This document shows, one piece after another, positions 2,531-60,071 of a stretch of 64,000 nt of DNA. The stretch lies in NCBI GenBank assembly GCA_000697355.1, contig JNEN01001208.1, positions 186,001 through 250,000 on the forward strand, read 5' to 3'. The notes beneath the pieces are model-generated. The model had not been told where the DNA came from and did not search any database. It saw only the letters and a list, made by a program, of their open reading frames with translations. Each line of letters begins with the position of its first letter. Position 1 is the first letter of the stretch. Source of the DNA: Syncephalastrum monosporum B8922 (taxonomy: Eukaryota; Mucoromycota; Mucoromycetes; Mucorales; Syncephalastraceae). A program made the translations under genes and the position numbers.

Positions 2531-3947
2531 TTATTCGCTGTCATCATGGTCGTCGTCCGAATCACTCTCCTCCTCGCTCGATTCGTCTTCGCTGCTACTG
2601 CTATTACTGCTACTGCTGCTATCGTTATTCTTCCGCTTCTTTTGCTGCTGTTTTTCTTCCTTGAGCTGCTGCTTGACCTTTTTGCGTTCAATGTTGGCCT
2701 TATTTTCCAGTCGCCGCCGTTCCTTTTCCTCACGCTGACGCGCCTTTTCGAAAAACTGCTTCATCTTGAGACCATACTGGGCACCGATTGCCTTTTCCCA
2801 TTCGTCCTTGGCGTGGCGATAAAGCAGCATCGTGAATCGTGCGTCTTCGACGGACGAGTGCTCGCCTGATTGAATATCCATGTCGAGGACACAGTCGACC
2901 AGTGTCTTGAGACCCGGGGTCCGGTGGTTGTTGAATTTCCAAAACGGCTTGTATTTCGACGTGTCACGAATCAGATACCGCGGATGCTTGATCCGGAGTG
3001 CTGACAGATCGTGGATGATGGCGTGGCCCACCATGATCCGGTCTTGCACAATGTCCAAGACTTTTTGCTGCGCTTCCAAGAAGGGCATGGCTATATTGAA
3101 TTATCGGTAGATAAGCAAGTATGTTTATAGGCTTCAGGGCTGGGGTGTTTACCATTCTTTAGATCCTTCGGTCGGATACCCGAGACTTCGGTACGGAAGT
3201 CAGTAATAGGCCGCTGCGGCTTGACAAATACATCTAAAAGAACCGCGCCAAAGTAGTTGACCAAACTCACACGCGCGAGCTCGCTCTTCTTTTTGCGGAA
3301 CGAGCCATCGGGGAGACGCTCTCCTGTCTCCACCATTTCACAATCAATAGCCACATACCGTCCCGCGCTGTAAGACAGGAAATAGTTATGTGAGCGACCC
3401 TGTCGAACGAGTAACTTTGTCTTTCTTTCTTCCTTTTGCACTTACGCAGCCTTTTCGCCTGCGACGTTCTCCATCTGCAGGAGTTGTTCAGCCTTGAGTT
3501 TCTTGCGCGCCTCGTGGTTCTGTGTTCGATGGATGTGCCGCTTGGCCTGGTCGTTCAGCTCTTCTGAGAACCAAAGCTCTTCCTTCTGAGTCGTTTTGGG
3601 TATCCTAAATGCAATAAAACAAAACATGAAATAAGGTTGGCAACCCGTGTTCTCGACTTGCATGGTTCACTTACTTGCCAGAGGTGACAGTCGTTTTCTT
3701 TTCACTAAAGATAAGGTTGGCGTGAGTCCAGTGGCAATGCACGTCGAGATCGCTTGAATTACCTCTTGAATCGCTTTGATTGGGCTTTGTGGCCGTCGGT
3801 CGCTTTTCGTTTGGTTGTCTTTTCATCTTTTTCAATGACCTACGGGTGCGCGTTGCAAACAATTAGGCTGATTCAATAGCTGCCGCGGAAGGTGCTTACG
3901 GCCTGGAGAGCTTTCCAGTTGGATCCAGGTGCGATCTTTTTCTTCAT
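2531..3947 (-). CDS. REX4-type 3'-5' RNA exonuclease (DEDDh)
   Basis: Six exons on the minus strand (3947-3900, 3839-3763, 3704-3675, 3604-3446, 3367-3153, 3090-2531) join in phase to 362 residues. All DEDDh exonuclease motifs are present: [11 protein letters not shown] (Exo I Asp and Glu), [12 protein letters not shown] (Exo II Asp) and [15 protein letters not shown] (Exo III His and Asp). The N-terminus ([13 protein letters not shown], then Lys-rich) and the Ser/Asp/Glu-rich C-terminal tail look nucleolar. Family members REX4/REXO4 trim RNA ends during pre-rRNA processing. Length lies between yeast Rex4 and human REXO4. The gene converges with enolase. ISG20L2-type relatives are the main alternative assignment. 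Confidence 0.9.
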
Positions 3948-4844: not shown

Positions 4845-6205
4845 TTAAACGATGTTGAGTTCCTTCTTCAACTTCTCGACCAGGTCATCACTGGCGCTGT
4901 GCTTGAGCGCATCGTCGCTCAGCTTGATCACGCGCTTGTCGTTGCAGTATTTCATCTTGATTACAATGTTCATCGGCTTGCTCTTCTCGGCTGGGGTGGA
5001 AGCCCGGCGGAAGTCGTTCGTGAGCGAGGTACCGATACCAAAGCTGGCCTTAATACCGGCTTTGTTGCACAGGTCCTGGAGCTTCTTGGCCCGCGCCACG
5101 TCGAGCGCGTCTGAAAAGACAATCATCTTGGTCGCGGGGTCAATGCCCAGCGAGGTATAGTGGTCCAGCATGCGCTGGATAAAGTCAGCCGGATCTCCCG
5201 AGTCCTGGCGCACCGCACCATACTTAGTGGCTAGGTCCTTGTCAAAGTCGCGCAAGAAGACATCCGTCGTGAAGGTGTCTGTCAAGGCGATACCGACGGC
5301 AGTCGGATACGTATCGTACCACTTGTTGAGCGTGATGGCATTTGCATGTTGCACGCCCTCGAGTGCAGACACGGCCATGAAAAACTCGTGAGCTATCGTA
5401 TCATATATCTCTCAGTATACGCATATCCACTTTGGCCGATTCCCTATCTCACTTACCGATGGTGCCAATAACGGGAACCTTGTACTTTTTCGCCAAATAG
5501 GCATTGCTCGAGCCGCTGAAACCGCCCGGGGCATCCTTGTTCGCCTGGGCGGCCTGAACAATTGCGTTCATGACCGTATCCTGGGTCTTGAGGTCACGGC
5601 GCCTCCGCGTACCAAATTCAGAAAATCTGCAGCCGTACTGGAGCAGTTCAGTTGCTTTGTTGTAAGCATTCTTATATTGGTTGTCATAGTTCCAGTCTTG
5701 ATCGACAAAGCGGAAATAGGCCTCTGAGATCAGGGCAAGAAGTGGCACCTCGTACAAGATGGCCTCGTGCCAGCTGCCAGTCACCTGAAGATCCAGTTCG
5801 CCCGTCGCGCTGTCAAACGTGTACTTGACCTGTTCCGCAGGTCTGTATCGGAACTGGCGCAGATAGTCCGCATACGACGCGTCAAAGATCGGCTGGTTCG
5901 CAATGTACTCATACTCATCCTCGGTAAGCTGAAGACGACCGAGACCTAAAGAGTAGAATGAGTATATCTTCTAGAATATAATGTATATATATATATATAT
6001 ATATAAGAGAACAATGAATTTGCTTACTGTCAATCTGCTTAGACAGCCACTGCATAGCTGCGTCGTTTAAGTGCAATTCTTTCTCGCGATTCGTGAATTG
6101 GTAGACAACACGGGCGTCCTTGTAGTGTTGAAGCACCGCGTACTGCATGGTAAACTTGTAAAGGTCATTGTCGAGAATGGAAGGAAATACTTCGTGCTGC
6201 GCCAT
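4845..6205 (-). CDS. Nicotinate phosphoribosyltransferase
   Basis: Three exons (6205-6028, 5945-5457, 5392-4845) join in phase to 404 residues, close to yeast Npt1. The enzyme makes nicotinate mononucleotide from nicotinate and PRPP in the Preiss-Handler NAD salvage route. The N-terminus SILDNDLYKFTMQYAVLQHY is the family hallmark. Also visible are FRYRPAEQV, YEVPLLALISEAYFR, the EFGTRRRRDLKTQD loop, the GTIAHEFFM motif with the conserved regulatory histidine, RQDSGDPADF, and the C-terminal GIGTSLTNDF and IKLSDD segments. The first intron (5946-6027) contains a (TA)n tract. Start choice: the first ATG is followed immediately by the conserved N-terminus. Confidence 0.96.
5981..6005. repeat. 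(TA)n microsatellite in NAPRT intron 1
   Basis: About a dozen TA dinucleotides inside the first intron of the nicotinate phosphoribosyltransferase gene. Confidence 0.8.
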
Positions 6206-6652: not shown

Positions 6653-7068
6653 TAAGCTTGTTGGATTGCGTTTTCCTCCCCTTCGTCTTCTCTCCCGTTG
6701 CCGCCTCTCTTCCTCTTGTTCAGTCGCGCCCCTGCTCCTAGATGTTGTTTTCCTGCTTTTTTCCTCCGTCCGCAAGTGAATGTACCGTACAGTGCTACAA
6801 GGAAATGTATAACAGCCCCACCCATAACGGTAAGTGACTCATATTGAATGAAATATCCTGAGCCATAATTTAGCAAAAGGAATTAGACGCGTGCTTTACA
6901 CGGGTGCATTAATTAGATGCATTGGTGGCCTGCCGTCTTGCGGGTGCAATAACGAACCCGGCTCTGCCGTAGGTAAGTAGGAAGCGCACATCAGTCAAAC
7001 GACAACTGTTTTTAGAATGAATCTCGATAGGCTATTTTCAGTGACTTTATCAATGACAACAATATTTA

Positions 7069-7358
7069 TCAAAAAGGACCATAATATTCCAAGTAACAAA
7101 GTTGACATGCCACTGGGTCATTACAATCATAACACGGATCAAAATCCTGCCGTCTTTCTTTGTGTCCTGGACGTACATATTTTGCAGAAAACAGTATTCG
7201 TTAGACATCCGTGAGTGTCTTTCGGCTTGTTATGTCTTACCCGATGGGACATGATTCACACCGTCTGCCTTTATGGTACGCTTCTCAGGAAGGCCGCAAA
7301 CTTGCAGGAGGATAACCCCAAAGATAAAGAGGAGAGCAGCTGACAGTCTTGATAGCAT
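7069..7358 (-). CDS. Small secreted cysteine-rich peptide, paralogue A
   Basis: Two exons, 7358-7241 and 7166-7069, join in phase to 71 residues. Residues 1 to about 22 are a signal peptide (MLSRLSAALLFIFGVILLQV). A propeptide with dibasic KR (26-27) and RR (44-45) follows; cleavage after RR would release a 26-residue peptide with N-terminal Gln and four cysteines spaced C-x2-C-x5-C-x2-C. Paralogue B at 14271-14548 shares the start, signal peptide, intron position and phase, RRQ/RQ site and cysteine spacing. The acceptor differs: the ancestral TAG position is TAC here and a CAG six bases downstream is used, keeping frame. I recognise no family. Possible roles (signal, antimicrobial, metal binding) are speculation. 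Confidence 0.65.
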
Positions 7359-7422
7359 TGAATAGGCCAGCGAAAGAGGACAAAGTGCGTACAGTCGTTA
7401 TTTATGAAGAGCAAGAAAATTC

Positions 7423-7441
7423 AGTCATTTATATATTTTCT
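7423..7441 (-). promoter_or_regulatory. TATA box of secreted peptide A
   Basis: On the minus strand a AAAATATATAAATG box sits about 70-80 bp upstream of the ATG at 7358. The same box is conserved at 14614-14632 in the paralogue. Confidence 0.6.
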
Positions 7442-7504
7442 CTCCCTCCTTCGTTCTTTAACATCTCTCTAATGCTTCGTACTTTTCAGGAGCTCACATG
7501 CATA

Positions 7505-7525
7505 CCTATACAAGCACATACAGAT
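7505..7525 (-). promoter_or_regulatory. Conserved upstream box shared by both peptide genes
   Basis: The plus-strand string TATACAAGCACATACAGAT occurs here and again near 14690-14709, at similar distance upstream of each TATA box. Its persistence when neighbouring bases diverged suggests a regulatory element, though shared ancestry alone could explain it. Confidence 0.4.
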
Positions 7526-7880
7526 GTACTACTGTCGCCTGAATAATCCCTGCTTACCCGCTTCTGTGCATGTTCGTGCACCCTACTAAAACGCCTCACC
7601 CGGAGAAAGAATAACGTGAATGCAGCAGAGCGGTACATAGTATCAGCTAACTATCTGGAGATTATGAAGACTAAAGATGATGGCAAGTAATTGGAGATAA
7701 TGCTGGCGATCTCAGTTGGAAATACGCCTTCTCTCCAACATTTGTTTACCGCAGGGCGCAAGCACCCCGCAGTAACTGCGCTTAGGGACACAGAGACATT
7801 CCCCCTAGGCTGCCACTGTATCGAGCAAAGAGTAGATGTCCCCTGGGACGATGCACCTTCCTAAGGCCGTTTGTACATGT

Positions 7881-9844
7881 GTTGTCTCTGCAAGGAACTG
7901 TCCTTAGCGGAAAGCATACCAACCATCACAACAATACCAGCAGTACAAATGCGGGAATATGATAAGCAGCATTACATGGTATCACTATTGTACAATTTTT
8001 ACGGTAGATATAAGCACTATACCGCACATATGATGTAAGCATTCTTGTGCTTTGTGGTTGGGCTGTAAGTAGGGGTATGTCTATCTATAAAATGTGTTGT
8101 AGCTGCAAAGGTTGCAGATCTTCCAAGGAGAAGGTGGAATGAGCGTTTAATGTATATTTGGAACCATCTGTCAGAGTTATATAGGTATTCTCGTGTGTAC
8201 AAGTATGTCATATTACATTCTTTGTAGCAGTAAACAACGTAATTAACTATTATGAAGGCCATTATTACTTAGCTTGGACACTACGTCGACAGAGGTTGAA
8301 TACTTATATCTTGTAAAAACTCCTCCTATTTTTTCTGTCGTTGCATCTCCTGAACTAAGGTTATGTGTGACAGATAAAGATCTGTGCCATGCTCCTATTC
8401 GACAGCTGCAGACTCATGCATGAAGACACATTGCTCTGCAATCGTCAAGGGTTTTACACCGGTACAGGCAGGCTTCCGGGCAAGAACACAGAGTCTTTGA
8501 TCCACACTTTAAGAATATTCTAAAGACCGCTCGAAACAATTACTGAACAGTAGTCTGTTGATTAGCAGGCCGCAGAGAAGCACTCTTAAGTGAATTAGGA
8601 GTATCGTCCGAGAAATCAAAAAGTGGCAAACTCAGCCAGTTATTGATGTTTGCGACAAGCAGCTGATTTACGGGCCATTATAAAGTAAATCCCTTCTACT
8701 ACTATTCCATCTCAAGCACAAGCTGCGACGAAGTAGTCATTCATTGGAAATAACCTAGTATAAATATTCACTGAAATCGAACAATTGGTGCTATCTAGTA
8801 CGGGATCTGTAGCAATACTGGAGTGACTGCAGTACCACGTCAAAAGCAGTCGTGCTGCTGGTTACGTACTCAAATATGTTAATGCTTTTAGTATACCTGG
8901 TCCGATATTTATTTTTTGCTAACATCCACTGTATATAAGTTACATTTTCTTTCGTTTGATTAAAAGACGTCTAATATTGTAACCATCTACTGTGCGAGTC
9001 GCAGCGAGCAGATACCTTCTCAAATACACAAATATTTTATCGGTATCACAGGTGGTTGCCTCTTCGCTTCATTTCATGCCTCTATCTGAAGGACGTTTGC
9101 ATGTGGAACATGATACTCTTCGGCCCTTTATCCTTATCATATCTAAGTCTAATAATCATAACCAAAACGGAAATATCAATCAGCGAGCAACAGTGTCCTG
9201 ATTATACTGTATATTATATCTACTGCGCTGTTATTAAATACACTAATGAGTAACATATGACTTCACATTGTAAGGCGCTTCTATTTTTGTGTTTACGTAA
9301 ATAAAATGCAACTACTGTATGACTGATAACCCGGTCTGTCCTACCGCAGATCCTGTACCGGAAGAGGAGAAAACGCCTTTAAGTTTTCTTCCGAAATGTT
9401 AAAATTTACGTGCGACTCATATAAAATATTTTCTGCGAAACTCCGACTATGCAACTTAATGTACGTTCATAGTGGGTCGTAAACTTATCAAGTGTAAAGG
9501 TGTGCTCGGCTAAGACAAGTTATCTTCATTATGATCGACACTACTTTAGCAAGGTACTTATCCATATCTTTGTGTGTCATGATGGCAGAAATATAAAGCA
9601 GCTAAGTTAAAATACTCTTTGTAGAATCGAGTACGCACATACACTTGTTCCAAAACATGGACTATCCGCCAAAATAGAGAAACAACGTTCGGTAATGCAT
9701 ACCATCTGTATTGCGCCTACCACCGGAAAATCTTTCGGAAGGGTTTCCATAAAGGGATACGCGACGTACCACTGCCATAAAAAGACGGAGCACACTATTG
9801 TCATCGCGTATACCAGCTTTTTTTCTTTTCTCTCTATCAACGAA
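7881..9844. other. AT-rich gene-free region upstream of P450
   Basis: About 2 kb of AT-rich sequence without any open frame that has coding character. Only short scattered frames are present on both strands. Contains the P450 promoter at the right end. Confidence 0.6.
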
Positions 9845-11728
9845 ATGACATCGGTGCGGCTTGCATTGCAACAACTGGAAGCAGCCACACAGTATATATC
9901 AACCGTTCTCTCATCAAAATACTCTTCACGACAGCTCGTGCTTCGTTATGGCCTGGCAGGAGCAGCAGCCTATATCCTCACGAAGTTTGTTGTCTATCGG
10001 CTCTGGATCCACCCCTCCACTCGACTTCCAGGGCCGCCCGTAGACTGGATCCCTTTCCTCGGCAACATGCGCGAAATCATTCGTGATGAGGTTCAAATAC
10101 ACTTTGCCGTTGACGCCATCAACTCATTCTTTCAATAGCCGGGCGATCCTCAGCGACGATGGGTGAAAAAGTACGGAAAGCTGGTGGGGTACCATGGCCC
10201 TTGGTACAGCAATCGTGTACTTGTGGCCGATCCTGTCCTACTGAAGCAGATCTTGACCATGGAGGAATACGACTTTATAAAGTCACCGGACACGGCGCGC
10301 TTCTTGCGACCTGTGCTCGGAGACGGCATTCTCTTGGCAGAGGTAAGACAGCAGTAATACAGGATGATCTGTGTAACGTGCTTACATGATCGGGTCATCT
10401 GTTTCGGGCAATAAGGGCGCTGCGCATCGGCATCAGCGCAAGATGCTCAATCCGGCCTTCTCGGTCCAAGCCACGCGCGGCCTTGTGCCTGTCATGGCCG
10501 TTCCTGCCGTGCACCTGTGTCGCCGCTGGATAAGCGAACTTAGTGCGGACGGCCCCACCGAGATCAAGGTATCCATGGGCTTGTCAATGGCCACTCTCGA
10601 CGTTATTGGTATGGCTGGCTTCGGCCAGGAGTTCCGGGCAGTGCTCGACCACGACAAGCCCGAAGCGCTCCATACGCTGGGCGGTCAGCTCAGTCACGCC
10701 TACCGTGATATCTTTTACGGCCCTGTATCGCTCATGCGCATGCTCAGTCTCTTTGTGCCGCCCTTGCGAGAGCTGCCCATCACGAAGCGCAACCGCGAGC
10801 TCAAACGAGATCTTGATATGCTGCGCCATACCACGAGTCAACTTGTCCAGTTGGCTCGGAAACGACTCCAGACGCAGGAAAAGATGTCACCCGTCTCGCG
10901 CGACTTGCTCACTTTGATGATCCACCAAGTTGACGAAGAGACGGGCGAGGGTATGACCGACCGCGAACTGGAAGATCAGTGCCTGACCTTTTTGGCAGCT
11001 GGGTTAGTTGCTAAATCATAATTATCGTGCGAATTTTTTGATGCATATACTCACCTATTACAATCACAATCGCCAGCCATGAGACCACGAGCGTATCCTT
11101 ATCCTGGACGCTGTGGCTGCTTGCAAAGCATCCCGAGATCCAGGACGCCCTCCGCGAGGAAGTCAAGCACCTCTTTGGCACCATCAACACAGACCACCCG
11201 ATATTTGCCAACTTTTTGGACGCGGTCAACCAGTCCTCAGTCGAAGAGTGCGTGAAGGCGGCCAATATCCCTTCACACGATGCCATTAATGGACTCAAGT
11301 TGCTCAACAACATCTGTAAGGAGAGCATGCGCCTCTACCCGCCTGTGCCCATGACGAGCCGCTGGACCTTGAAAAAAGAGAGCGTCCTTGGCACTGTAGC
11401 GTTACCTCGAGGCACGCGTCTTTTTGTATCGCCAATGGTGCTTCACCACGATCCGGAGATCTGGGGCGAGGATGTGGAGGTATTCCGCCCGGACCGGTGG
11501 AACGAGGCGCCAGCCAATACGGTCAGTCCCTACGTCTACATGCCCTTCCTGGCTGGTGGACGGCAGTGCATCGGCAATCGCTTTGCCATGATGGAGATGA
11601 AGGTCCTCCTGGCCATTCTGGTTAGCACGTTCCGTTTCCACGAGAAACCTGGGTTTGAGCCCAAGCGTCGCCAGATGGTTACTCTGCGTCCAGTGCCATA
11701 TATGACCCTGATGGTGGAAAAACTGTAA
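9845..11728 (+). CDS. Cytochrome P450 monooxygenase
   Basis: Four exons (9845-10090, 10139-10342, 10416-11002, 11077-11728) join in phase to 562 residues. Domains in order: N-terminal amphipathic region and membrane anchor (about 35-60, GLAGAAAYILTKFVVYRL), proline hinge RLPGPPVDW, C-helix HRHQRKMLNPAF, I-helix AAGHETTS (about 344-351), ExxR as ESMR, PERF-type FRPDRW, and the heme loop FLAGGRQCIGNRFA with the thiolate Cys at about 510. This is an ER-anchored class II P450 of CYP4/CYP5xx type; the substrate cannot be told. Intron 1 is only 48 bp with donor GTTCAA. The gene lies between the two secreted-peptide copies. No other biosynthetic gene is adjacent. AATAAA occurs just after the stop. 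Confidence 0.93.
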
Positions 11729-12413
11729 ATTTAGCCTTTTATCTATCATCATCATATCATATATATATAATAAATTATATATTCCGTACTCGATTTAACA
11801 TAAGCAGGACGCTGAGACCCAGGTTTATTTCCAGGTCAGAGCGTCTTTATGTCGGAATTCTCTCGACCGTAAGGACAGGCACAGTTGGATGAAAGAACCA
11901 AAAGAAGAGTAGATGGGAAAAATAGGTAGCTGCAAATAGAATCTAGATGCCATAACCTCAGTACCGAGAGCGAATGAACGCAAGGAGGGAGCGAAGTGAG
12001 AGGGAGCGCATATAAATCATAAATTTTTGTAACCTGGTGCTATGTTAGTCATGAACTGTAGATTTTGATATGATAGTAAAGATGTCTTGCAGTCAGTTTG
12101 TTCTTAAGGGTACAGTACGCGAAAGAAAAAAAACTGATGATTCTCTGTCGTAGACAAGACAGGGCAAGACAGAAGAAGACAGAGAGAGAAGGTATACGCG
12201 ACTAAGAAGGGTCACGAGGCACTATTCTACACCGCCAGACAAGATACACATTGAACTGAGAGTTTATATGACAAAGATCGAGACATATAAGGGACATATG
12301 CGACAATAGCCAGATGCTTTTATACAGACTACATTTCACAATGTCGTAGCTTTCCACCGTATCGGAGACAAAACCCGCTCCAGTACCCTTATTACCAATG
12401 CATCTCACTGCAA
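11729..12413. other. Intergenic region downstream of P450
   Basis: AT-rich 3' region of the P450 gene with (AT)n near 11758-11770 and purine-rich runs near 12120-12200. No gene is supported. Confidence 0.5.
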
Positions 12414-13153
12414 ATGACCTGCGGTTTGTTTGCTGAAGGCAGCTTCTTGCATCGCAAGGTGTTGGAGCTTGCGCGGGACTGTAGCGCCTCCTGCTCTGCC
12501 ATATCGAGGAGAAGTCTCTTTTTTCTTTCACGCAGCCACGCATGCTTGTTGGTCATTGAATGTACATGGATATTCATGGCTGTGATATTGTGTATCTCGT
12601 ACGAAGCTGGGTTTTCGAGGCTAACGGAGACCGCCCAGGTGCACATATGTCGTTGACAAAGACTAATGTGAATGTAAGGTGGGCAAGAAAGGTGCTTGTT
12701 GGGGTATTGGAAAAGGGAAATGGTAAACAAAAAATAACAACAATGAAAGATAACAGGAATGCGTGTCCAAAGGAGAAGGTGGTACGACTTAAACTGGCTG
12801 TCGCATTGAGTATGACAAAATACCATAGTCTGTCTGGTGAAAGCAGGGCGTCTGTCTCATTACCGCGTCACATTCTGTTTTTAATGTGCGCTGATGTCAA
12901 TCTTTTCCGCACTGTACTCAAGACCATGGCTTTTGAGGGCCGGCAAAACCACCAGGGTTCCTCTTTGTTTCCTTGTGCATTTGAATATGTGGTCTCGTCC
13001 TTAATCTTGATTGACCAGATAATGTCCGTAAACTTTTGCTGGAAAGCCTGCAGCTTGCAGAGCTCCTCATAGATGCTTTTCTTCTTCTCTACGCTGATTT
13101 GCTTAAATGCTGACCCTTCACGATTGAAAGAGAGCACTTTCGGCTTAAAACCA
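12414..13153 (-). CDS. Unresolved gene candidate, at least two coding segments
   Basis: Two minus-strand segments look coding. Segment 13137-12868 reads SVEKKKSIYEELCKLQAFQQ and then FTDIIWSIK, helical and charged. Segment 12663-12414, after a CACATTAG acceptor, reads CTWAVSVSLENPASYEIHN and then RERKKRLLLDMAEQEALQ. The frames could belong to one spliced gene, but I could not find a donor/acceptor pair that joins them in phase with good sites, nor a convincing start. No family recognised. It may be a real lineage-specific gene, a decaying one, or chance. Confidence 0.3.
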
Positions 13154-13790
13154 TATCATAAAATCCATCGATATCTGTTTCACTTCTAGGGCTCGCGATA
13201 TGAGCTGGCAATCGAAAGAGAAAAAGAGATAGAGACAACACAGGATAAAGATGACCCTGGAAATTGTGGAGCGATAAGGGTATAATTATACATAGGACTA
13301 TGGGTATAATCTAACAGAAACAACATAGACGACAAAGTTCCCCTCGAGTCCCTCTGCCACCGGTTGCTCAACCATGCACCGGTGTGCAGAATAGTAAGCT
13401 GTTGAGTTAAAGTACAATACATTGGACATCTTTAACATCGTTCCAACGTATATGTAGCTTGTTGTATTACGTTTTCTTTCCCTTCCATCTTCTGTCCCGT
13501 TTGCATCTTTCTTCCTCTTGTCCGCTTGCGCCCCTCCAACTAGAGGTTTCTTTCCTTGCTTTTTCCTCTGTCCGTAAGTGAAACGAACTACAGGAGAAAC
13601 TCAAAATTGTTAACATATACACAGCTGCTGTTAGGTCGCTCCTTTCCTTTTCCGTTCCTTTTGCGCCCCCACCCCCACCGCCCTAGCCTACGGCAGAAAC
13701 CGGTAGTAGTATAAGCCTTTCATTACAGGCATATTCCCAAATGGCTCCAGCCCCGCCCATCATTGTAAGCGATTCACATTGGATGGAACC

Positions 13791-14074
13791 GTAATTGATA
13801 CGGCCAACACCACCACCACCCCTCAGCCTTGCAGCCCCTCCTTCCACTCTCCAACTAATTCCACTCTCCAACTACGATCGATTTGGACCACAGCAGCTGT
13901 CGCAACCTAAATAGGATGATTCTCTTTGCGGACTACCGCAACTCGTATGCATTTAGCTTAGGGACCTTGTGTATCTATATTTTTCTAGCGTCATCGTCAT
14001 CGCTTGCAGCAAGAGTGGAGGGATGGGGGTGGCCACAAGGCTGCGGGGGGGTGGTTGTTGGCCGTATCAATTAC
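13791..14074. mobile_element. MITE with ~60-bp terminal inverted repeats
   Basis: The left end GTAATTGATACGGCCAAC and the right end GTTGGCCGTATCAATTAC are exact inverted repeats. The inverted similarity continues inward for about 60 bp through CACC-rich, CAGCCTTG and TCCACTCT blocks. The element is about 284 bp with no coding capacity. Comparison with duplication copy 1 shows the empty site; a possible 3-bp target duplication (ATG) flanks it once a few extra end bases are included. A similar end (GTTGGCCGTATCA) recurs near 38490. The superfamily is unassigned; a 3-bp target site would fit PIF/Harbinger. Confidence 0.8.
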
Positions 14075-14270
14075 CAGATGAAATATCCTGATACATGGTT
14101 TGACAAAAGAAATTAGATGCGTGCCCTACACGGGCGCTTTAGTTAAATGCAGTTGCGGCCTGCCGCCTTGCGCGTGCAGGAGCGAACCGGCTCTGCTGTG
14201 GGTATGTCGAAAGTGCACTTCAGTCGAACGACAACTGACTTTAGAATATAGGCTAGCTCCGGTGACTTTA

Positions 14271-14548
14271 TTAAAGACCAATTTCACATAATTCACAATC
14301 TGTTGCGTCAACACAACCAGAACACGGATCTCCAGTCGGCTGTCTTCGTACGTGCTTTTGACCTACATATTTTGTACAAGACAGTATTCGTTAGTTATGC
14401 GTGAATGTCTTTCAACTTGTCGTGTCTTACTCGATGGGAGTTGATTCACACCATCTCTTTTTATGGTACGTCTCTCGGGAAGAGCGCAAACTTGCAGGAG
14501 GATAATCGCAATAGCAAAGAAGAGAACAGCTGAGAGTCTTGATAGCAT
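14271..14548 (-). CDS. Small secreted cysteine-rich peptide, paralogue B
   Basis: Two exons, 14548-14431 (118 bp, identical in length to paralogue A) and 14362-14271, join in phase to 69 residues. Signal peptide MLSRLSAVLFFAIAIILLQV; propeptide with RR (26-27), KR (30-31) and RR (45-46); predicted mature part of 23 residues beginning with Gln and carrying C-x2-C-x5-C-x2-C. The intron has a GTAAGA donor, CTAAC branch site and TAG acceptor. An in-frame ATG further upstream (14617) exists, but the start conserved with paralogue A is preferred and places the signal peptide at the N-terminus. The mature parts share the Cys residues, one Asp-Pro pair and little else, which suggests fast evolution under a conserved fold. 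Function unknown. Confidence 0.68.
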
Positions 14549-14613
14549 GAGTGGGCCAGCGAAAGAGAATGAAATGCGCACAGTTAACTGATGAAAAGAA
14601 AAGAAAAATACAA

Positions 14614-14632
14614 GCATTTATATATTTTCTCT
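14614..14632 (-). promoter_or_regulatory. TATA box of secreted peptide B
   Basis: CATTTATATATTTTCTC on the plus strand, equivalent to the box at 7423-7441, about 70-80 bp upstream of the ATG at 14548. Confidence 0.6.
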
Positions 14633-15065
14633 TCCCCTCCTCCAACATCTTTCTAGTGCTTCGCACTTTTGGGGAGCGCACATGCATACGTATACAAGCA
14701 CATACAGATCCCCGCTTGCTCGCTTCTGTGCATGCATGTGTACCCAAGAAAAGACTGACCGGAGAAAGAATAACGAAACGCAGCAGGGCGATACATAATG
14801 CCAGCTAACTATCTGGAGGTTATGAAGACTAATGATGATGGAAAGTAAATGCTGGCGAACTCAGTTGGTATAAAGACCACTAAAGAAAAGCCAGCGCTTG
14901 AATTACGCCTTCTCTCCAACATATGTTTACGGCAGGGAGAAAATACTCCCTAATAACTGCGCTTAGGGACACAGGGACGCTCTCACTTGGTTATCCCCGT
15001 ATCGCGCAAAGGATAGGTGACCCCTGAGACGATGCACCTGCCTAAAGGGCGTATGTACAACGACA

Positions 15066-15611
15066 GCTCCTAAAGCAAAACATTCTTCTTAGAATAGCCT
15101 TTTCAACAGCGCATCGGTTTCACACGTTAACGCAGGCGCACGGGTCATCATAGCTTGCACTTGTTCTTCGGGTCCCTCCTGTCCGAGTCGAAGGCTAGCT
15201 GAGGCTAAGGCCCTAGACCCCTTTGATCGGGGCTTGAGTGAAAATCATGCTGCAAAGTTTTCCTTTATGTGTATGCATGATATACATATCGTATACAGCA
15301 TGTAGATACCGATACATGCAACCTGTATGTCATAAGCGGGCCGACGAGTATATTGGTATATGTAGATAACGATATCAGAAAAGGCACGTCGCAGCTAATC
15401 CCCCTATATTTTATTTTCGCCTATTTCTCCTGTGAATTTTCGGCGTAAAGTCTTCACCATTTTTTTTTTTTTTTTTTGGTAGATAGAGTGGCATTTTTCA
15501 CCAATGAGTGGTGAAATACATTGCTGAGATAAACCAGGAAGGCTGTCAAAGTGGCGCTCCGCCTGAACCACACATTTCTCAGTTTCCTGTACCTCTATCT
15601 GCTGATCAATC
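15066..15611. other. Gene-free stretch left of the zinc-ribbon gene
   Basis: Contains a 17-nt T run at about 15462-15478 and short repeats (TATACATATCGTATACA near 15280). It is the promoter side of the ZNRD2-like gene. No gene supported. Confidence 0.5.
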
Positions 15612-16657
15612 ATGTTGCAAAACCCGAGTTCAGGTAGCAGTGACAATGCAATGTCACTCCTGAGCACGTATATGCTCCAGGGCTGGGTATGCTTGACTTG
15701 TATGCACATTGTGTTATTCATCACCTGCTTTCTCAAAGGTCATGACGAATGAAAAGTGCAAGGTGCCCGATTGTTATGTGCCCATTATGCGTTCCAAGGA
15801 TGGTTCTGTCCACTTTTGCGTCACCCACGACGCACTTCCGACCCAGTCGTCTTCCTCTTCCTCTTCCTCTACCAAATCACCCGCTAGCATACCCACTCCC
15901 GAAAAGGAAACGGCTCCTCCAGCGAAGCGAGGTGCTATATCTGAGGAGGAGGAGCGAGAGGAACAGCCCGCCAAGCGCGCAGCCGTACCGAGCCCCACAG
16001 ATGAGCAGCGGATAGCACGCGAACGTCGTGAACAATCGAGCCGTGCCTCCGAACTAATTGGAAAACGTCTCCTGCAGCGCTGGGCCCTCCTCAACGATGT
16101 GTGCCCTAATCCTACTTGCTACGCTGTAGGTTTTTGACTCAAATATCCCACAGATGAACTCATGAGCATATTAGATTCCCTTGATGCGCGATCCATCCAA
16201 ACGCATGACTTGCGTCATTTGCGACCGCGTCTATCTCACGGAAGAGCAGGCTACCAAGGAAGAGAACAAGAAGAAACAAGCCTCTACTGCTCCTGCTCCT
16301 GCTCCTGCTCCTGCTACTCCTGCTACTACTGTTGCTCCTGCTGCTCCTGCTGCTCCTTTAGCGTCAGAAGCCACACACGTCACAACATCCTCATCTGCAC
16401 TCGACGCAGATCTCACTGCAGCACCGCCTGCTATTGTGAAGCAGGAGGAAACACCACAGACGAGCACACGGACCCACAAATTCTCTTTCGAGGCGAATGC
16501 CTATTGCAGTTCGATCCGAAGGCAGCTGGATGCGCTAACCTTCAAGATCGAGCGCGAGTCTGACCCCGCCAAGCTAAAGCTCCTGTTTGAAGCCATCACA
16601 GCCGGCGCGGTCGCCATTCGTACCTGTGCAGAGACTGAAGCAAGCCTGTCACCTTAA
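15612..16657 (+). CDS. ZNRD2/SSSCA1-like tandem zinc-ribbon protein
   Basis: Three exons (15612-15686, 15739-16125, 16175-16657) join in phase to 314 residues. The SSSCA1 zinc-ribbon pattern (helix LLxxYMLQGW, then C-x4-C, PLMR, C-x2-C/H) occurs twice. Ribbon 1 is split by intron 1: YMLQGW, then VMTNEKCKVPDCYVPIMR and HFCVTHD. Ribbon 2 spans intron 2: IGKRLLQRWALLNDVCPNP, then IPLMRDPSKRMTCVICD. Between and after the ribbons are low-complexity Ser/Glu and Ala/Pro segments; the C-terminal 60 residues are helical. The exact role in fungi is not established; the human relative ZNRD2 was found as an autoantigen. The first exon is supported by the motif becoming whole only after splicing. Ribbon 1 ends C-x2-H rather than C-x2-C. 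Confidence 0.85.
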
Positions 16658-17701
16658 TACTGTAATATGGAAGTAATGCAATACAAGATCTAGAGAGCGG
16701 TGTCAGTATCTTCTTCGTCGATGTCTCGAGTACAATAGAGAATGCGTACATACATTATACACATATCCAGAAATACATAGAAGCACATAGATCGGAAAGC
16801 GATGTATTCCAGGTCTACGTACAGAACATTTGAGTGGATCGGTCTGACAGACGAACGACGATAGTATTGAAAGTGAGAGCTTACATGATAATTATTCTCA
16901 CCAAATCAGTTTAATCTGATGGAGGCACAGCGGCGTGATTTTCTGATCGGTCATGGCTAGCATATAGCATATGTATGATCATACGCGCAAGTATGGACAC
17001 TGTGCGTCTGCTGCATCATATTTCTACGTATAGCACCAATCCCACTGCAGTAATACTTTAGCTGTCATATACCAGCCGAGTTTTATGTATGGTACAGGCG
17101 AGCATTACAGAAAGACAATAAGTGGCGCATAGGCAGCCGATGATTTCTGCCATGCTTGGCGGACGTAGTAGATAGAACCTGCAAAATGAATGGCACATTG
17201 TATGGCTACGGCGCCAATATATATCGGCAGGGCAAGCAGGGGATGAACACTGTATTGTTTCTTGAAACCATGGTCAGCTGGGTGTGGTCAATCTACCAAG
17301 ACCAAGATTAGATTTGGCGCTCAGGATGGCACAGAGAGAATTTGACTCAAAACCACTTCAGCTTGCTTTTCCATGTGTACCACTGAATGAATGAAATAGT
17401 CCGATGAGTGTTAAGGTATAGGTACTATGTAAGTCTACACCATTTATTTTTCGTGTGCTAAATTTTGTATATTGCAATTCCCTGCGTAACCCAACGCCTT
17501 TGCCTGCTAATTTGGCTTACTACGTGAAGGATAACGTACTGGAAGCTTTATCCATTGATGTGCTGTTGGGGAGCTCATGTCCGAACAGGAGATTTTTTTT
17601 AATCTGAATTTCATGCTGAACTCAATGTCAATTTCTGGTCTTCTCTTGTTGGTCGCGGTCGATTTTTTTTTCTTTGCATTCCAGTGTTTGAACCTTCAGC
17701 C
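16658..17701. other. Gene-free stretch between ZNRD2-like and Grc3 genes
   Basis: AT-rich with no coding character. A pyrimidine-rich TTTTTTTTCTTTGCATTCCAG just before the Grc3 ATG could be the end of a 5'-UTR intron. Confidence 0.5.
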
Positions 17702-20497
17702 ATGGCAAGCAACAAGAAATCAACTAGAAAAGTCGCCACTAAAGCGCGAGGCAAACCCAAGACTGGAAAAGTGAGCAATGCTTCGGATGCATCCAAGTCA
17801 GACCTCGAACACGTACATTTCGTCAAACAAGTGACAGCTGTTGCGATTGACGTCCCTCCCCGATTCGCTGCCCATTTCGAAGCATTGAAGAAACACCAAA
17901 ACGACAACGCTCAGCTCAAAACACCCAAGCGAAAGACTGTGACACCCAAGAAGAAGACTACAGCACCTCCCAGGGCAGACAAAGTCCAACAGGGACAGCA
18001 ACAACAAGAACAACAAACAGAACAGTCGTCGTCGCGAAAGCGTCCTGCTGCACCAGAACCTGCGCCACCCAAGCGCACGCGAAGAAAGGAAAGCGCGCTA
18101 GCCCTGCGCCGCCGCCTGCGTGAAGAGGCGCTGCAGGCGTCGGAAAAGTTTGCAGCAGAACACACACCGACACCTCCTCACGAATCCAAGCCAGATACGC
18201 CTCGGCAAGAGCCCACAGTACGACAAGAAGAAAAAGAAGAAAAAGAAGAAAAAAAAGAGAAAGGTGAGCCGCCTTCCACGGTTGAAAAACAGCCTACGCC
18301 GCCGAAACGCCTCAGTGCGGTTGCGATGCGCCGCTTGCGCGAGCGCCAGGCTGCCTCCCCCGTGTCGCCTGTCGAAACCACTGTCGAGACGGTACGAACT
18401 GCAGTCAGGTCAACTACGGTCGAAACTACTATGATCGAAGCAACAACGGCCCCGGCCGCGCGTCCCATCATCAACCGCGCTCGTCAAAAGTAAGCAAGCA
18501 AGCGGGAGCAATATAACCCAGAGGAACTCACTCACTCCTGCCTAGGTTGATCAACGAGGCAAAGCACGGCACGTTTGAGCCCTCGGCCAACAATGTCGTC
18601 GCGTTTGAAGCCAATGACGAGCCACACCTCTGCGTTGCACTCAAAAAAGACGAGGTATGAGGATCTTGCTGTGGTCCGGCTCTCTTTTGCTCATCGTTAT
18701 TTGGATGTCTATAGATATTTGCCTTCTCAGGCATGGCTCTGATCGCACCCTTGATGGGCGCGATCAACATCAACGGAAGCGTCTGCTCTGCACCGGGCGA
18801 CGTCATGACCCATATCACGCACGACACCTTTCCAGCACCCGATTCCCTTGCCTTTTGGCCCGTATTTTCGCCCCGCTCGCATGCGCGCATGACCCTCAAA
18901 GCTACTGCGCGCAGCAAGTCCTCTTCAACGGAAAATGGTGCTATTGCGTCCAAAGTCGATATTGATTGGGCGACCTTGTTAACGAAGCTCTGCACGCCGC
19001 AGACCAAGGCTGTTTTGGTCATTAAAAGCTTAGCCTGGTGCGGGCTGGCTGACATTGGTCGCTACATTGATTTCAGGGATGTGTTTGCTCTCCATCATCC
19101 CCACTCTTACGAGCCCATGAATTCCGTCCCCGGTTTCCAGTTTGTAAGTCTCGAGATGCGTTTCGCGTGGAGGGATTCCTAATATCTATTTCATCAGGAA
19201 CCTTATGACTCTAGGAATAGCAAGTTCTTGACCATGCCGCCCAAATGGGAGAAAATGGTGGAACAAGAGATCCAGGCTCGCATGAACGGCGTCTTTTCGG
19301 CAGTCGTGTGCGGCCCGCAAGGCTGTGGCAAGTCCAGCTTTAGCCGTTTCCTCGTCAACCGTCTCTTGAATGTGTAAGCTTCTCCCTCCTCTACTGGCTC
19401 CGCCTACGTAGAAAATCTCACCGTCTTTAAAAGGCACAAGCGTGTAGCATTCATCGAGACCGATCTCGGCCAAGCCGAACTCGCGCCGGCCGGTATTGTG
19501 ACGCTCCACATCCTCGACGCGCCGCTGCTAGGCCCACCCTTTACGCACCAGCACATTCCCCCCACCCAGAGCGTCTTTCTCGGTTCGCTCTCGCAAAAGG
19601 AAAATCCAGGCTACTATCTCGATGGCGTCGCCGAGCTCGTCAGAACCTGGCAGCAGCAGTATGAGGACGTGCCACTGGTGATCAACACGAGCGGCTGGAT
19701 CACGAGTCTCGGTTTTGATCTGCTCATTAGCCTCGTCCGGGACGCCAACCCGCATAGCATCTTCCAGTTTTGCGTGCCGATCCGGGAGAACAATATCGCC
19801 AGCTCGTTCGAGGCCTCGGTCACGCCCATAGGCAGCGCACCTCGTACCGTCTACAAGCTGGATTCCATCCTGGCCGCGCATGAAGAGCAAGACCCGCGCC
19901 GCTCCATCGATTGCCGGACGCTGACGACTCTGTCCTACTTTTATCAGGAGCGCGAAGCGTTTGGCCAGCTCCATCGCCGCTGGTGGCGTCTCGATCGCCC
20001 ACTCACGCAGCAGCCGCCGTGGCAGCTCGCTTGGAAGGGCCTTCAGCATATGTGGCACCTCTACGACGACGTCCAACCTGACCAGCTCCTGTACTCGCTC
20101 AATGGTACGGTTGTCGCCTTGTTTGAGCGCCTCAAAGACGCGACACAGGAGGAAGGGGAGGAAGAGGTCCGCAAGATGGTAAGCAAACGGAAATAGATTA
20201 CCCGTGGATAGGCACACTTACACTGTTTTTATAATATAGCCCACGTATGCGCCGGGTGCTTATAGTATGCCACCCCCTGTACGTGGCATGTCGTGCCTCG
20301 GTCTGGGTATCATCCGTGCGGTGGATCAAGACAAGCAAGCCCTGCATATCTTATCGCCTCTCCCTCTCAAAGAGCTCAAAAAAGTGTATGCCATCGCCAG
20401 GGGCCATACGACCTTGCCTCTCGGCTGCTTCAGCGACGACGACGATCCTGACTGGGTCAACACACCCTATGTCACCACTGACTACCCGTTTGCTTGA
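17702..20497 (+). CDS. Grc3/NOL9 polynucleotide 5'-hydroxyl kinase
   Basis: Six exons (17702-18489, 18546-18654, 18715-19143, 19198-19373, 19434-20178, 20240-20497) join in phase to 834 residues. The first ~270 residues are a low-complexity Lys/Gln/Glu/Pro-rich arm with several basic clusters (KRTRRK, RRRLREE), probably nucleolar. The kinase core has Walker A GPQGCGKSS (about 481-489), AFIETDLGQAE (Walker B/lid region of Clp1-type kinases), LVINTSGWITSLGFDLL and a conserved C-terminal domain (GMSCLGLGIIRAVD, LHILSPLP). Grc3 phosphorylates the ITS2 RNA end and acts with Las1 in pre-rRNA processing and Pol I termination. The tail is spliced 181 bp before the next gene. Confidence 0.93.
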
Positions 20498-20678: not shown

Positions 20679-24427
<3,749 letters not shown>

Positions 24428-36000: not shown

Positions 36001-36129
36001 TGAGGTAGGCGTCTACGCCACTCCAGTGCGGGCTGCCTCACTCTGTAATAGCCATCCTGAAGCTGGAAAATGCGCGCCGCCCACCGCATCGCTGTTTCAC
36101 CAGCTGTGCAAGGCACCCAAAAAGCACCA
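33091..36129. other. 3-kb gene-free region with possible retroelement relics
   Basis: No intact gene. Around 34600-34860 the minus strand shows a short gag-like reading (KLEDVSRHCIKQAFREL) with weak similarity to the plus strand near 36030, hinting at an old, inverted Ty3/gypsy relic. The rest is featureless AT-rich sequence. Confidence 0.4.
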
Positions 36130-36915
36130 CACATACCTTGCTGTCTTCACCGAAACCCAAGCCTGCTCGCTGGCCGAACAACGCTCACATGTAGACCATA
36201 CCATCCCACGGTCGAAGTTGCTCAACCTCCATTCGGTCCTATTTACCCGCTGCCCCAAGACGAACTGCGCGAGCTGTGTGAAATATCACCAATTTTAAGA
36301 GCGGGTTCATCCGCCCATCTACAAGTCCCCCAGGGGCCCCAATCTTTCTTTATCAAGAAAAAGGTTGGTTCATCATGCATGTGTATCGACTACCGTGGCC
36401 TTAATAAATTCACCATCAAGAACCGCTACCCGCTGCCTCTCATCAACGACATGCTCGAACGTTTTGCGTCTGCTGCCGTCTTCACCGATTTGGATGTCCG
36501 CAACGCATACGATAGGATCCGCATCGCTGCCGGGAACGAATGGAAAACAGCTTTCCATACCCGTTATGGCCACCACGAGTACCGCGTAATGCCGTTTGGC
36601 CTGACTGACGCGCCCGCCTCCTTTCAAGCCCTTATCAACGATGTTCTCCGCCCGTTCCTTGGCCTGTTTGTCGTCGTGTATCTCGATGACATTCTGATCT
36701 TCAGTACCTCACAAACCGAGCATGACCGCCATCGCTCTCGTCCTTGAGCGACTACGTCAAAGCTGACCTCTACGTCAAAGCGTCTAAGAGTGAGTTTGAC
36801 GTCGATAAAGTCGAATTCCTCGGTTTCCGCGTCGGCCGCTCCGGCACCGGCATGACCCCGCCAAGATCCAATATATCATGGATTGGCCCACCCCAACCTC
36901 CGTCAAGAGTATTTA
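36130..36915 (+). pseudogene. Broken Ty3/gypsy pol fragment (reverse transcriptase)
   Basis: The longest frame holds reverse transcriptase motifs: CIDYRGLNKFTIKNRYPLPL, FTDLDVRNAYDRIRI, MPFGLTDAPASFQALIND and the catalytic VVYLDDILIFS (YLDD). Upstream the pre-RT linker (FTETQACSLAEQRS and PFGPIYPLPQDELREL) is in different frames, and after about 36740 the reading shifts again (SKSEFDVDKVEFLGFRVG, then WPTPTSVKS). At least two frameshifts plus missing protease, RNase H and integrase mean a dead fragment. A sequence near 37455-37475 (GGGGGGTAATGTCACGA) resembles a polypurine tract followed by an LTR start, but no matching LTR was found. Confidence 0.85.
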
Positions 36916-56740: not shown

Positions 56741-59700
56741 ATGACACTGGCTACTCCAGGCACAGGACACCACCCCAGGAGTACTCACTCCATTCATGAC
56801 AACGCAACCACGACACCATCGGCACGTCAAGTCCGCAATGACGATGGACCGAGCACGAATGACGCCAAGACAGTGGGGCTAACCACGTCTCCGACACATA
56901 CGCTGACCTCAGCAGCTTCAGCAGCTTCAGCAAAAGAAGGCATGAATGCAGGTGAGAATATCATCCCTACAGGACCCTGACCCAGACTGACTCCGGCTGA
57001 GCAGGACACGCGTCACATGATAAGGATACCAAGAACAACAAGCATGATGTCCTGCTACAACGCGGTGGTATGTCTTAAATATGACCTATTTGCCAATGAG
57101 TTAACCAGCTATATTTGCTGCTTCGTTTTCATTCGTCTGTTACTAGCTTCCACTGTTATGCACGGTGCCTTTTATGAAACACAAGGTTCGCAAAGAAGGA
57201 AAGGTGGTAATTTTTCTCACCAACAGGGGGCCTCCATCTATCTTGATGCAAACAGATCACCCGCAAGTGCCTGCGCTACCACCGCGTCCTAAAAGCGCCG
57301 AGTATCTCACTCGCTCCACGCCCCCGCCTCTTGGTTCTTCTTCGCATTCGCCTCCGGTGCCCGCCCCGCCTCGACTTCCACCGCGACCGTCCGTCTCTGC
57401 CACCAACCGCGCCCGCGCCAGGACCCTCAACAGCAACGACATGACTGCGGGCTATAAAGAGACCATGGAGCCACCGCCTTCGCTGCCCAGGGTGCAAGGA
57501 CGCCATTTCGCAGAGGACACGCCCAAACGCCGGAAAAACAAGATGGACGTCCTCAACAGCACGCTGGCCAACACCCGCTCCCGCTCTAAGAGCATTTCAG
57601 ACATGCCGACCTCGTCCAACATGGGCAGCCGTCACAAGAAGCACCATCGCCGAAAGTCGCCTCCACTGGTCCCCTCGGCGCGCACTCATGCCATGGCCGT
57701 CTATCCCGATTATACACACGTCGACCGCAAACCGCCCTTTGGCGGCGGCCACCAGCGCTACATCTCGGCAAACCACCCTGCGGGCATGATTCGTGCCGTC
57801 GCGGCCTCCTGTGACCGCATCGCCACCGCCTGCTACTCGGTCAAGCTCTGGGACGCGGCCGGTCAGAACACGGGCTGCATCAAACAGGGGGATGCGCTGT
57901 CGCCCCACGATCATGCCTTGGGCGACACGACCGCCAACGCAGCCTCGCAAGAGTTCATGATGGCTATCACCATGCAGGAACGGATCAACTGCCTGACATT
58001 TGCGCCTGATATGCGGTATCTCTGGGCTGGACTCGAAGACGGCCGCATCTTGGTCATGGATACCGTCAAGCCCCGCATCGTGCAAGAGCTGCGCATGCAT
58101 GAGCACGGTGTTGTTTTCATCCTCTCTGTCGCGCACGAGCTGTGGACGCTCGATGAAGCCGGGTCGCTGATCCGGTGGCCCCTGGACACACTGCCAGACG
58201 AGAACGAGGAGGACGAGGAGGACGAGGCGATACGCGCTAGACTGATGCATGACGGCTATGTTCACCAGGTCACACCACGCGCGGTTGCGGCTGCGGTCAT
58301 CACCAACGAAGACTGCCATTCGCTCTGGCTCACCTCCAAGGCGGGCCGCACCCTCGATGTCTACAAGTTTCCGACCGCGCGCGCCAGTACCCCGAAGCAC
58401 ACCGTCGTGTGCCCGTCCCGCGTTGCCACGATACCCAATGATCTCCGCGACATTACGCATATGGTGACCCTCCATGCTCAGCCCGGCCAAGCGGCATGCA
58501 TCGTGTGTGGTCACGACGATGGCTACGTCACGGTATGGAATGCGGAGACGCTGGTGCTCGAGCACGTCGTGCGTGCCTCGGTATACGAAGTCACGGCCAT
58601 GTTGGTCACGCGCGAGCACCGTCTGTGGATCGCCTTCAAGACGGGCGTGATTCATGTCTATGACATACAGCAGTCGCCGTGGAAAGCCCTCAAGATGTGG
58701 GAAGCCCACAGCGGGCCGATAATCAAGTTTGTCTTGGAATGTGACGCCGACCGCGAAGGCATCCGTGTGATTAGTACGGATTCGCACGGGCATATTGCCA
58801 TCTGGGACGGGTTGCTGCTCGGCACCTGGGAAGGTGAGACAAAAGAGAAGGCCGGTCTGGGTCCTGAATGGCAGCACGCTGACTACTTTTTCGATAGACC
58901 AGCGCGTCGAGAAGCTCATGCTCGAGAACAGCACGTACCGCAATACCCGTGTGCACATCTGCTCATGGAACATTGATGCACGTAGTCCGGACCAGCTGAC
59001 TGTGACGGACAAGGAGAGATTTGCCGGATGGCTCGGCGCGGGCGCCGAACGCGACCCTGATATCCTGGCGATCGGACTCCAAGAGATTGTGGACCTCGAA
59101 TCCAAACGTCAGACCGCACGTAAGTCAGATAGATGCTCTCAATAGGACGGTCCTGTTTATATCCCTGTCCTTCAGGCTCGTTTTACTTGTCGCGAAGAAA
59201 GCAGGACAAGCAGGAGGCGCACGACGAACTCCAGCTCAAGGAACAGTACGGTGCCTGGCGGAGCTATCTCAGCGAGACAGTCGCTGCTGCCTATGGCGAC
59301 ACATACACGCTCGTCAAGACCGAGCATCTGGTGGGCCTCTACAGCATTGTCTTTGTGAAATCCACTCTCGCCGTACGGGAGGTGCAATCCACGACGGTCA
59401 AGACTGGCCTGCGCGTGATGAACAAAAGTCTCCATGGTAACAAGGGAGGTATCGCGATCCGGCTTCTGCTCGAGGACGCCTCCTTTTGCTTTGTCAACTG
59501 CCACTTGGCGGCGGGCCAATCGCATGTTCGTCAGCGTAACCTGGACGCCGAGACGATCCTGCGCACCGCCAAATTCCCGCCCCTGAGCGGCCAAGACACC
59601 AGGACGATGCGTGGCGGTGGCGACGGCACGTATATTCTCGATCATGCACACACGTTTCTCAGCGGCGATTTGAACTACCGCCTCGATCACTGGTCCAAGC

Positions 59701-60071
59701 AAGACGTGGTGCAGTGTCTGCGAGACCAGACCGAAGTGTCGGGCAAGCGGATGATGTACCGCCATCTGATTGCAGAGGACCAGCTTCATAAACAGCGTCA
59801 AGACCATCCGCTGCTCAACATGTTGACCCTGTTTGACGAGCTCGAGATTCAGTTTGATCCCACCTACAAGTACAATCGCGGCACAGACGCATACGACACG
59901 TCTGTCAAACAGCGCGTCCCGGCTTGGTGCGATCGTATCCTCCATCGGACCATCAGTCAGGCTGACAAGGCTGTTTACGGCCGCCACGAAATCCTTGCAT
60001 CGGATCATCGCCCCATCGCTGCCAGTTTTGATCTCAAGACGGTATCCAAGATCGTGATACCCCCTGCCTAA
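56741..60071 (+). CDS. WD40-domain inositol polyphosphate 5-phosphatase
   Basis: Firm exons are roughly 57196-58833, 58898-59119 and 59176-60071; proposed upstream exons 56741-56951 and 57005-57067 connect in phase if exon 3 starts at 57196 or 57199, giving about 1009 residues. The start and intron 2 are uncertain. After a Pro/Arg-rich arm comes a beta-propeller (INCLTFAPDMRYLWAGLEDG, then ACIVCGHDDGYVTVWNAET, GHIAIWDGLLLGTW). The IPPc catalytic domain shows ICSWNIDARSP, LAIGLQEIVDLES, LHGNKGGIAIRL, VNCHLAAGQSHVRQRN, FLSGDLNYRLD, VPAWCDRILH and SDHRPIAASF, all needed for 5-phosphate removal from phosphoinositides. The WD40-IPPc order is like plant 5PTases; yeast Inp51-54 lack the propeller. 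Confidence 0.9.

Follow-up and report, generated by a model that had tools for sequence, protein, structure and literature searches.

The DNA analysed here, called the window, is a stretch of 64,000 nucleotides (bases 186001-250000 of the 252-kb contig C138) from Syncephalastrum monosporum B8922, whose genome assembly comprises 27.5 Mb in 198 contigs. It carries two small spliced genes, A and B. These are probably duplicated genes for secreted, acidic peptides that are released at dibasic sites, are predicted to form two disulfides and are under fast evolution. In this one pair of copies, the residues that separate the cysteines have changed at about twice the rate of non-coding DNA, which favours this interpretation.

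Both genes are located on the minus strand. An earlier sequence-only reading had placed A at 7069-7358 and B at 14271-14548, and both gene models were borne out, with spliced precursors of 71 and 69 amino acids. In window coordinates, the parts of the two genes are:

7241-7358 (118 nt), minus strand: exon 1 of gene A, coding for the predicted signal peptide and the start of the pro-region; length, phase and donor are as in B and in the further copies C and E.
7167-7240 (74 nt), minus strand: intron of gene A, GTAAGA..TCTAACG..CAG.
7069-7166, minus strand: exon 2 of gene A, coding for an ERR site and the predicted mature peptide QDFDPCYDCNDPVACQLCYLEYYGPF, with the stop codon.
14431-14548 (118 nt), minus strand: exon 1 of gene B.
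14363-14430 (68 nt), minus strand: intron of gene B, GTAAGA..ACTAACG..TAG.
14271-14362, minus strand: exon 2 of gene B, coding for a VRR site and the predicted mature peptide QPTGDPCSGCVDATDCELCEIGL, with the stop codon.

Exon 1 has 118 nucleotides in both genes and ends in codon phase 1, in agreement with the proposed match in length and intron phase. The introns have the donor GTAAGA and the branch-like CTAAC in common. In the base alignment, the acceptor of B lies 6 nucleotides upstream of that of A, and the reading frame is kept.

Precursor A consists of MLSRLSAALLFIFGVILLQVCGLPEKRTIKADGVNHVPSGHKERR, followed after the predicted cut by QDFDPCYDCNDPVACQLCYLEYYGPF; precursor B consists of MLSRLSAVLFFAIAIILLQVCALPERRTIKRDGVNQLPSSQKHVRR, followed by QPTGDPCSGCVDATDCELCEIGL. 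A signal peptide is present in both, as judged by eye. The dibasic sites claimed earlier can be read directly: K26R27 and R44R45 in A, and R26R27, K30R31 and R45R46 in B. Such a site stands before the mature part of each precursor, despite a one-codon offset in the ungapped base alignment. The predicted mature peptides have 26 (A) and 23 (B) residues, begin with Gln and contain the pattern C-x2-C-x5-C-x2-C, as the sequence-only reading had stated. Each has five Asp/Glu and zero Lys/Arg by direct reading.

The earlier description of a well-kept leader and a fast-changing mature part was supported by amino acid identities between A and B of 70% in exon 1 and 36% in exon 2. Base identity is 97/118 in exon 1, 60/74 in the intron and 46/72 in the aligned codons of exon 2. 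The flanks have 158/210 (near 5'), 226/271 (far 5') and 164/203 (3') identical bases. Much of the 3' flank is repeat-derived DNA, which makes it suitable as a yardstick for neutral change. Differences affect 26 of 72 bases in exon 2, compared with 150 of 758 non-coding bases (one-sided Fisher p = 0.0017). The difference rises to 26 of 60 bases when the Cys codons are left out (p = 6e-5 against non-coding DNA). The four Cys codons are kept, with 0 differences in 12 bases (p = 0.0025). The non-synonymous rate is higher in exon 2 than in exon 1 (p = 0.0009), and the comparison of non-synonymous with non-coding change is below 0.05 in all three alignment registers of exon 2 (p = 0.0007, 0.009 and 0.038, with rounded site counts). 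Gaps open 11 times in the flanks of the A/B alignment, across 684 aligned bases, and once in exon 2; exon 1 and the intron align without gaps.

These values favour a change in exon 2 that is faster than neutral between the cysteines and slower at them, although the argument is not airtight. They favour a cysteine scaffold under fast evolution, which is perhaps diversifying. Fast change between kept cysteines is expected of a peptide surface that is reshaped by interaction. The retention of the coding features was also assessed by simulating gene A with substitutions only and with splicing ignored. At the flank divergence of 20%, an open frame with all four cysteines was kept in 2.0% of 20000 runs. 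At the exon-2 divergence of 36%, it was kept in 0.045%.

The leader would take the precursor into the secretory pathway. A kexin would then cut after the dibasic site just before Gln, releasing an acidic peptide of 23-26 residues; matches to the kexin-type P-domain are present elsewhere in the genome, on contigs C156 and C166. The four cysteines would form two disulfides holding a compact loop. The surface of this loop may be reshaped through interaction with a different organism or with a partner that itself changes, for instance in a competitor-directed peptide or an extracellular effector. This is the weakest step of the scheme. The further copies C, D and E would be family members that are older, have diverged or are broken, on the contig that also carries A and B.

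Five copies (A-E) were found in the genome, all on C138 and on one strand. The family queries were precursors A and B and the leaders of C and E, with E-values up to 10. A genome search with A found B and the leader of copy C at C138:60650-60781 (E-value 0.02). The C leader in turn found the leader of copy E at C138:162261-162377 (E-value 0.0036), and the reciprocal search with E found C (0.004). Non-self matches connected A and B with each other and with C, C with E, A and B, and E with C, and nothing else. With exon 2 as the query, A and B each matched only themselves in the genome. Copy D is broken off. It was detected by DNA search at C138:94630, with window positions 7331-8620 matching C138:94630-95919. 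Its match to A takes in 28 bases at the start of exon 1, and roughly 1.26 kb of the 5' flank is retained with about 71% identity (D region C138:93130-96179).

Taken singly, the E-values of C and E are modest. Their membership in the predicted family is made convincing by exon 1, the 5' motifs and the leader profile. Exon 1 has exactly 118 nucleotides in A, B, C and E, is free of indels and has its GT donor at the same place. The profile was built from these four leaders, which score high by construction, and no fifth frame exceeded the threshold among 7620 contig frames. The upstream-box core TGCTTGT is present in all five copies. TTTCGCTGGCC precedes the ATG in A, B and D and has an altered form in C and E. 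The duplicated segments and upstream elements in the window are:

6848-7877, minus strand: duplicated segment holding gene A, matching 14078-15059.
14078-15059, minus strand: duplicated segment holding gene B.
7428-7435, minus strand: TATATAAA of gene A, about 70 nt before the ATG; also in B and D.
14617-14624, minus strand: TATATAAA of gene B.
7489-7525, minus strand: upstream box of gene A, ATCTGTATGTGCTTGTATA.GTATGCATGTG.
14674-14709, minus strand: upstream box of gene B.

A and B thus have the TATA box and the upstream box in common, as had been noticed before. This alone is not independent evidence of a promoter function, because about 1 kb around each gene is also shared (identity 0.75-0.83 by segment). 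The claim of a paralogous secreted-peptide family can be widened, since the contig carries three or more additional members or relics, and narrowed in another respect, as the four-cysteine pattern is limited to A and B.

Several results weigh against the interpretation of A and B as fast-evolving secreted peptides. The pattern C-x2-C-x5-C-x2-C was not found in C or E when several acceptors were tried by eye, with uncertain readings. C is open without splicing for 97 amino acids from the same leader and has RR and cysteines (frame C138:60491-60859, minus strand), and E yields only a short frame with one Cys; both readings are uncertain. C and E may be pseudogenes or encode peptides of another kind. 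The four-cysteine pattern is thus a feature of the A/B pair, resting on two copies. The ratio of non-synonymous to synonymous rates (dN/dS), which the sequence-only reading had suggested as a check, gave a divided answer for exon 2. The ungapped register (0.57/0.25) and the core from DPC onward (0.43/0.31) give values above 1, but placing RRQ in register does not (0.47/0.81), so that the result hinges on how exon 2 is aligned. The contrast between non-synonymous and synonymous change within exon 2 is not significant (p = 0.17). Exon 1 has dN/dS values of 0.52-0.91 across the six pairs of A, B, C and E, a weak constraint. Its freedom from indels is weak evidence because the A/B intron is likewise indel-free. 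A fold prediction of the exon-2 open frames from the two-row B/A alignment had a mean predicted local distance difference test score of 56.5 and was uninformative.

Searches for relatives add to these points. In a collection of about 5.8 billion proteins, query A alone found no candidate sharing enough words. With A and B aligned to the unspliced 97-amino-acid frame of C, the search gave 14 candidates, none at E 10 or better. As a positive control, the window gene at 59133-60068 matched 406 proteins with E-values no worse than 1e-20, of which 120 were listed; one reached 99%. Among the matches listed, the first named relatives are Mucorales (Zychaea mexicana 54%, Fennellomyces 51%, Dichotomocladium 51 and 53%), which shows that the order is represented in the collection. 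Absence from predicted-protein sets is weak evidence since small spliced genes are poorly called. No Pfam family reached the cut-off for A or B, with one sub-threshold match, and a PDB search with B only gave two sub-threshold matches and no significant one. A zinc-finger likeness of B (primase/MCM10) was at chance level (E 0.07 in Pfam, 0.24 in PDB) and was dropped. Among the titles and abstract openings listed in literature searches, none gave an account of the A/B peptide family. Those listed for the spacing C-x2-C-x5-C-x2-C were of radical-SAM, sactipeptide and mitochondrial papers, with no fungal secreted peptide.

The 3' flank of gene B contains:

14077-14247, minus strand: piece of a dispersed genomic repeat, starting about 24 bases below the stop codon and resuming at 13280-13788 past an insertion.

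This repeat recurs at many places in the genome (78 match rows; 40 of 238 candidates scored). The insertion that splits it has about 290 bp, resembles a miniature inverted-repeat transposable element and has inverted ends of about 60 bp at 13791-13850 and 14012-14074. A second dispersed repeat of about 330 bp is located at window 15140-15466. It recurs on several contigs, and C138:127487-127837 carries it in inverted orientation. A reverse transcriptase domain (RVT_1, E 2e-24) at window 36061-36744 probably belongs to a retroelement.

Protein-coding neighbours were identified by a Pfam scan of 20 frames in the window; the limits of the P450 gene are approximate:

9845-11728, plus strand: cytochrome P450 gene with introns, between A and B; judged to be outside the unit.
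1223-2374: enolase.
4848-5970: NAPRTase.
19378-20193: CLP1-type gene.
23612-24424: class I tRNA-synthetase domains.

The frames 2534-3100, 12560-13072, 16175-16654 and 17603-18490 had no Pfam match. No biosynthetic cluster was recognised among the 20 frames. Around C, D and E, 10 of 58 frames of at least 130 amino acids (19, 20 and 19) were scanned, and no Pfam family was common to the three regions.

Three other explanations were weighed. A and B could be relics, once functional and now unselected, whose frames are still open because the copies arose fairly recently; chance would then account for the fast exon 2, and the cysteines would be kept by luck. The degenerate or broken-off appearance of C, D and E points this way, as do the A-B dN/dS of 0.62 in exon 1, only moderately below 1, and the largely repeat-derived 3' flank. 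Exon 1 and intron are also similar in A-B identity (97/118 and 60/74), both without indels. However, relaxation alone would not push the divergence of exon 2 above that of the intron and flanks. Under neutral substitution, the chance of an open frame with four cysteines is at most 2.0%, even before indels and splice sites are considered. Relics are an unlikely explanation. A secreted signalling or metal-binding peptide, in which the CxxC pairs bind metal or the peptide acts on the fungus itself, would need no arms race. The two CxxC pairs, the strong acidity and the sub-threshold zinc-finger resemblance of B agree with this, but the zinc-finger scores are at chance level and the fast change between the cysteines suits an interaction surface more than a metal site. 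The secretory pathway favours disulfides, which also counts against metal binding. This explanation is considered very improbable.

A ribosomally synthesised and post-translationally modified peptide (RiPP) would be formed if the P450 or another enzyme modified the freed core peptides. The P450 is positioned between both precursor genes, and dibasic release of a core is known from fungal RiPPs. A joint function of peptides and P450, speculated on earlier, found no support. The P450 is encoded on the strand opposite to the peptide genes. Its piece at 11216-11725 has a 59%-identical paralogue at C150:21647-22111, and the peptide queries had no match on that contig. Of the 12 P450 matches in the genome at E 1e-10 or better, the only one on C138 is that between A and B; none was seen near C, D or E. 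No further biosynthetic enzyme was recognised in the 20 scanned frames, several of which lack a Pfam match. UstYa/DUF3328 (PF11807), encoded close by in dikaritin-type fungal RiPPs, had no match in the genome, which is not decisive as control genomes were equally silent. Modification to a RiPP is hardly credible at this locus. A wider idea extends the interpretation as fast-evolving secreted peptides. The copies could represent a lineage-restricted family within the Mucorales, whose acidic, single-core peptides are processed at dibasic sites and recognise competitors or mating or hyphal partners. The 118-nucleotide phase-1 leader exon would be fixed (A, B, C, E) and the downstream exon diversifying or replaced, much like in venom peptide families. 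This extension is speculative and rather improbable.

Duplicated genes for disulfide-held, secreted peptides thus remain the probable explanation. If they are expressed, early-diverging fungi carry tiny spliced secreted peptides that are excluded by design from the repeat-based survey of PMC6339444. Two intact genes share one contig with three copies that are diverged or broken, which makes the locus a compact case of a kept cysteine frame and a changing surface.

Licosin, a defensin of Lichtheimia corymbifera (Mucorales), is the closest precedent treated here. According to PMC13199095, its 68-amino-acid precursor has a signal and a short pro-part, and the mature peptide was confirmed by mass spectrometry. 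It is thus an example of a Mucorales fungus that makes a single-core secreted cysteine peptide from a signal-pro-mature precursor. A and B resemble it in precursor size, signal peptide, short pro-part, single cysteine-stabilised mature peptide and fungal order. The pro-part of licosin ends with Arg-Ser in the abstract and with Lys-Arg in the introduction of that paper. Licosin is intronless and has 41 mature residues, six cysteines and a cysteine-stabilised alpha-beta (CS-alpha-beta) fold (PMC13199095). In contrast, A and B are spliced, with 23-26 mature residues, four cysteines in another spacing and an acidic character. They are not defensins: the CS-alpha-beta fold needs six or eight cysteines and the mature parts have four in C-x2-C-x5-C-x2-C, with no Pfam family at the cut-off. 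Defensins are described as cationic in PMC13199095, whereas mature A and B are acidic (five Asp/Glu and zero Lys/Arg each).

Kex2-processed repeat proteins (KEPs) are reported for 38 of 39 Mucoromycota strains (PMC7329392). KEPs and A/B are alike in a secreted precursor, judged by the signal seen by eye in A and B, and in KR/RR cuts that free short peptides (PMC6339444, PMC7329392). The KEP pipeline, as described in PMC6339444, demands at least three similar repeats separated by KR/RR. With one core per precursor, A and B do not belong to the KEPs and would be missed by this pipeline. A short precursor, a signal judged by eye and four paired cysteines in the mature part are found in A and B as in small secreted cysteine-containing fungal peptides. 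The small secreted orphan fungal proteins of PMC7105643 are likewise short, with a signal peptide and no known domain, and nothing sets A and B apart from them as a kind. Most likely, A and B are ordinary representatives of the large number of fungal secreted peptides that evolve fast.

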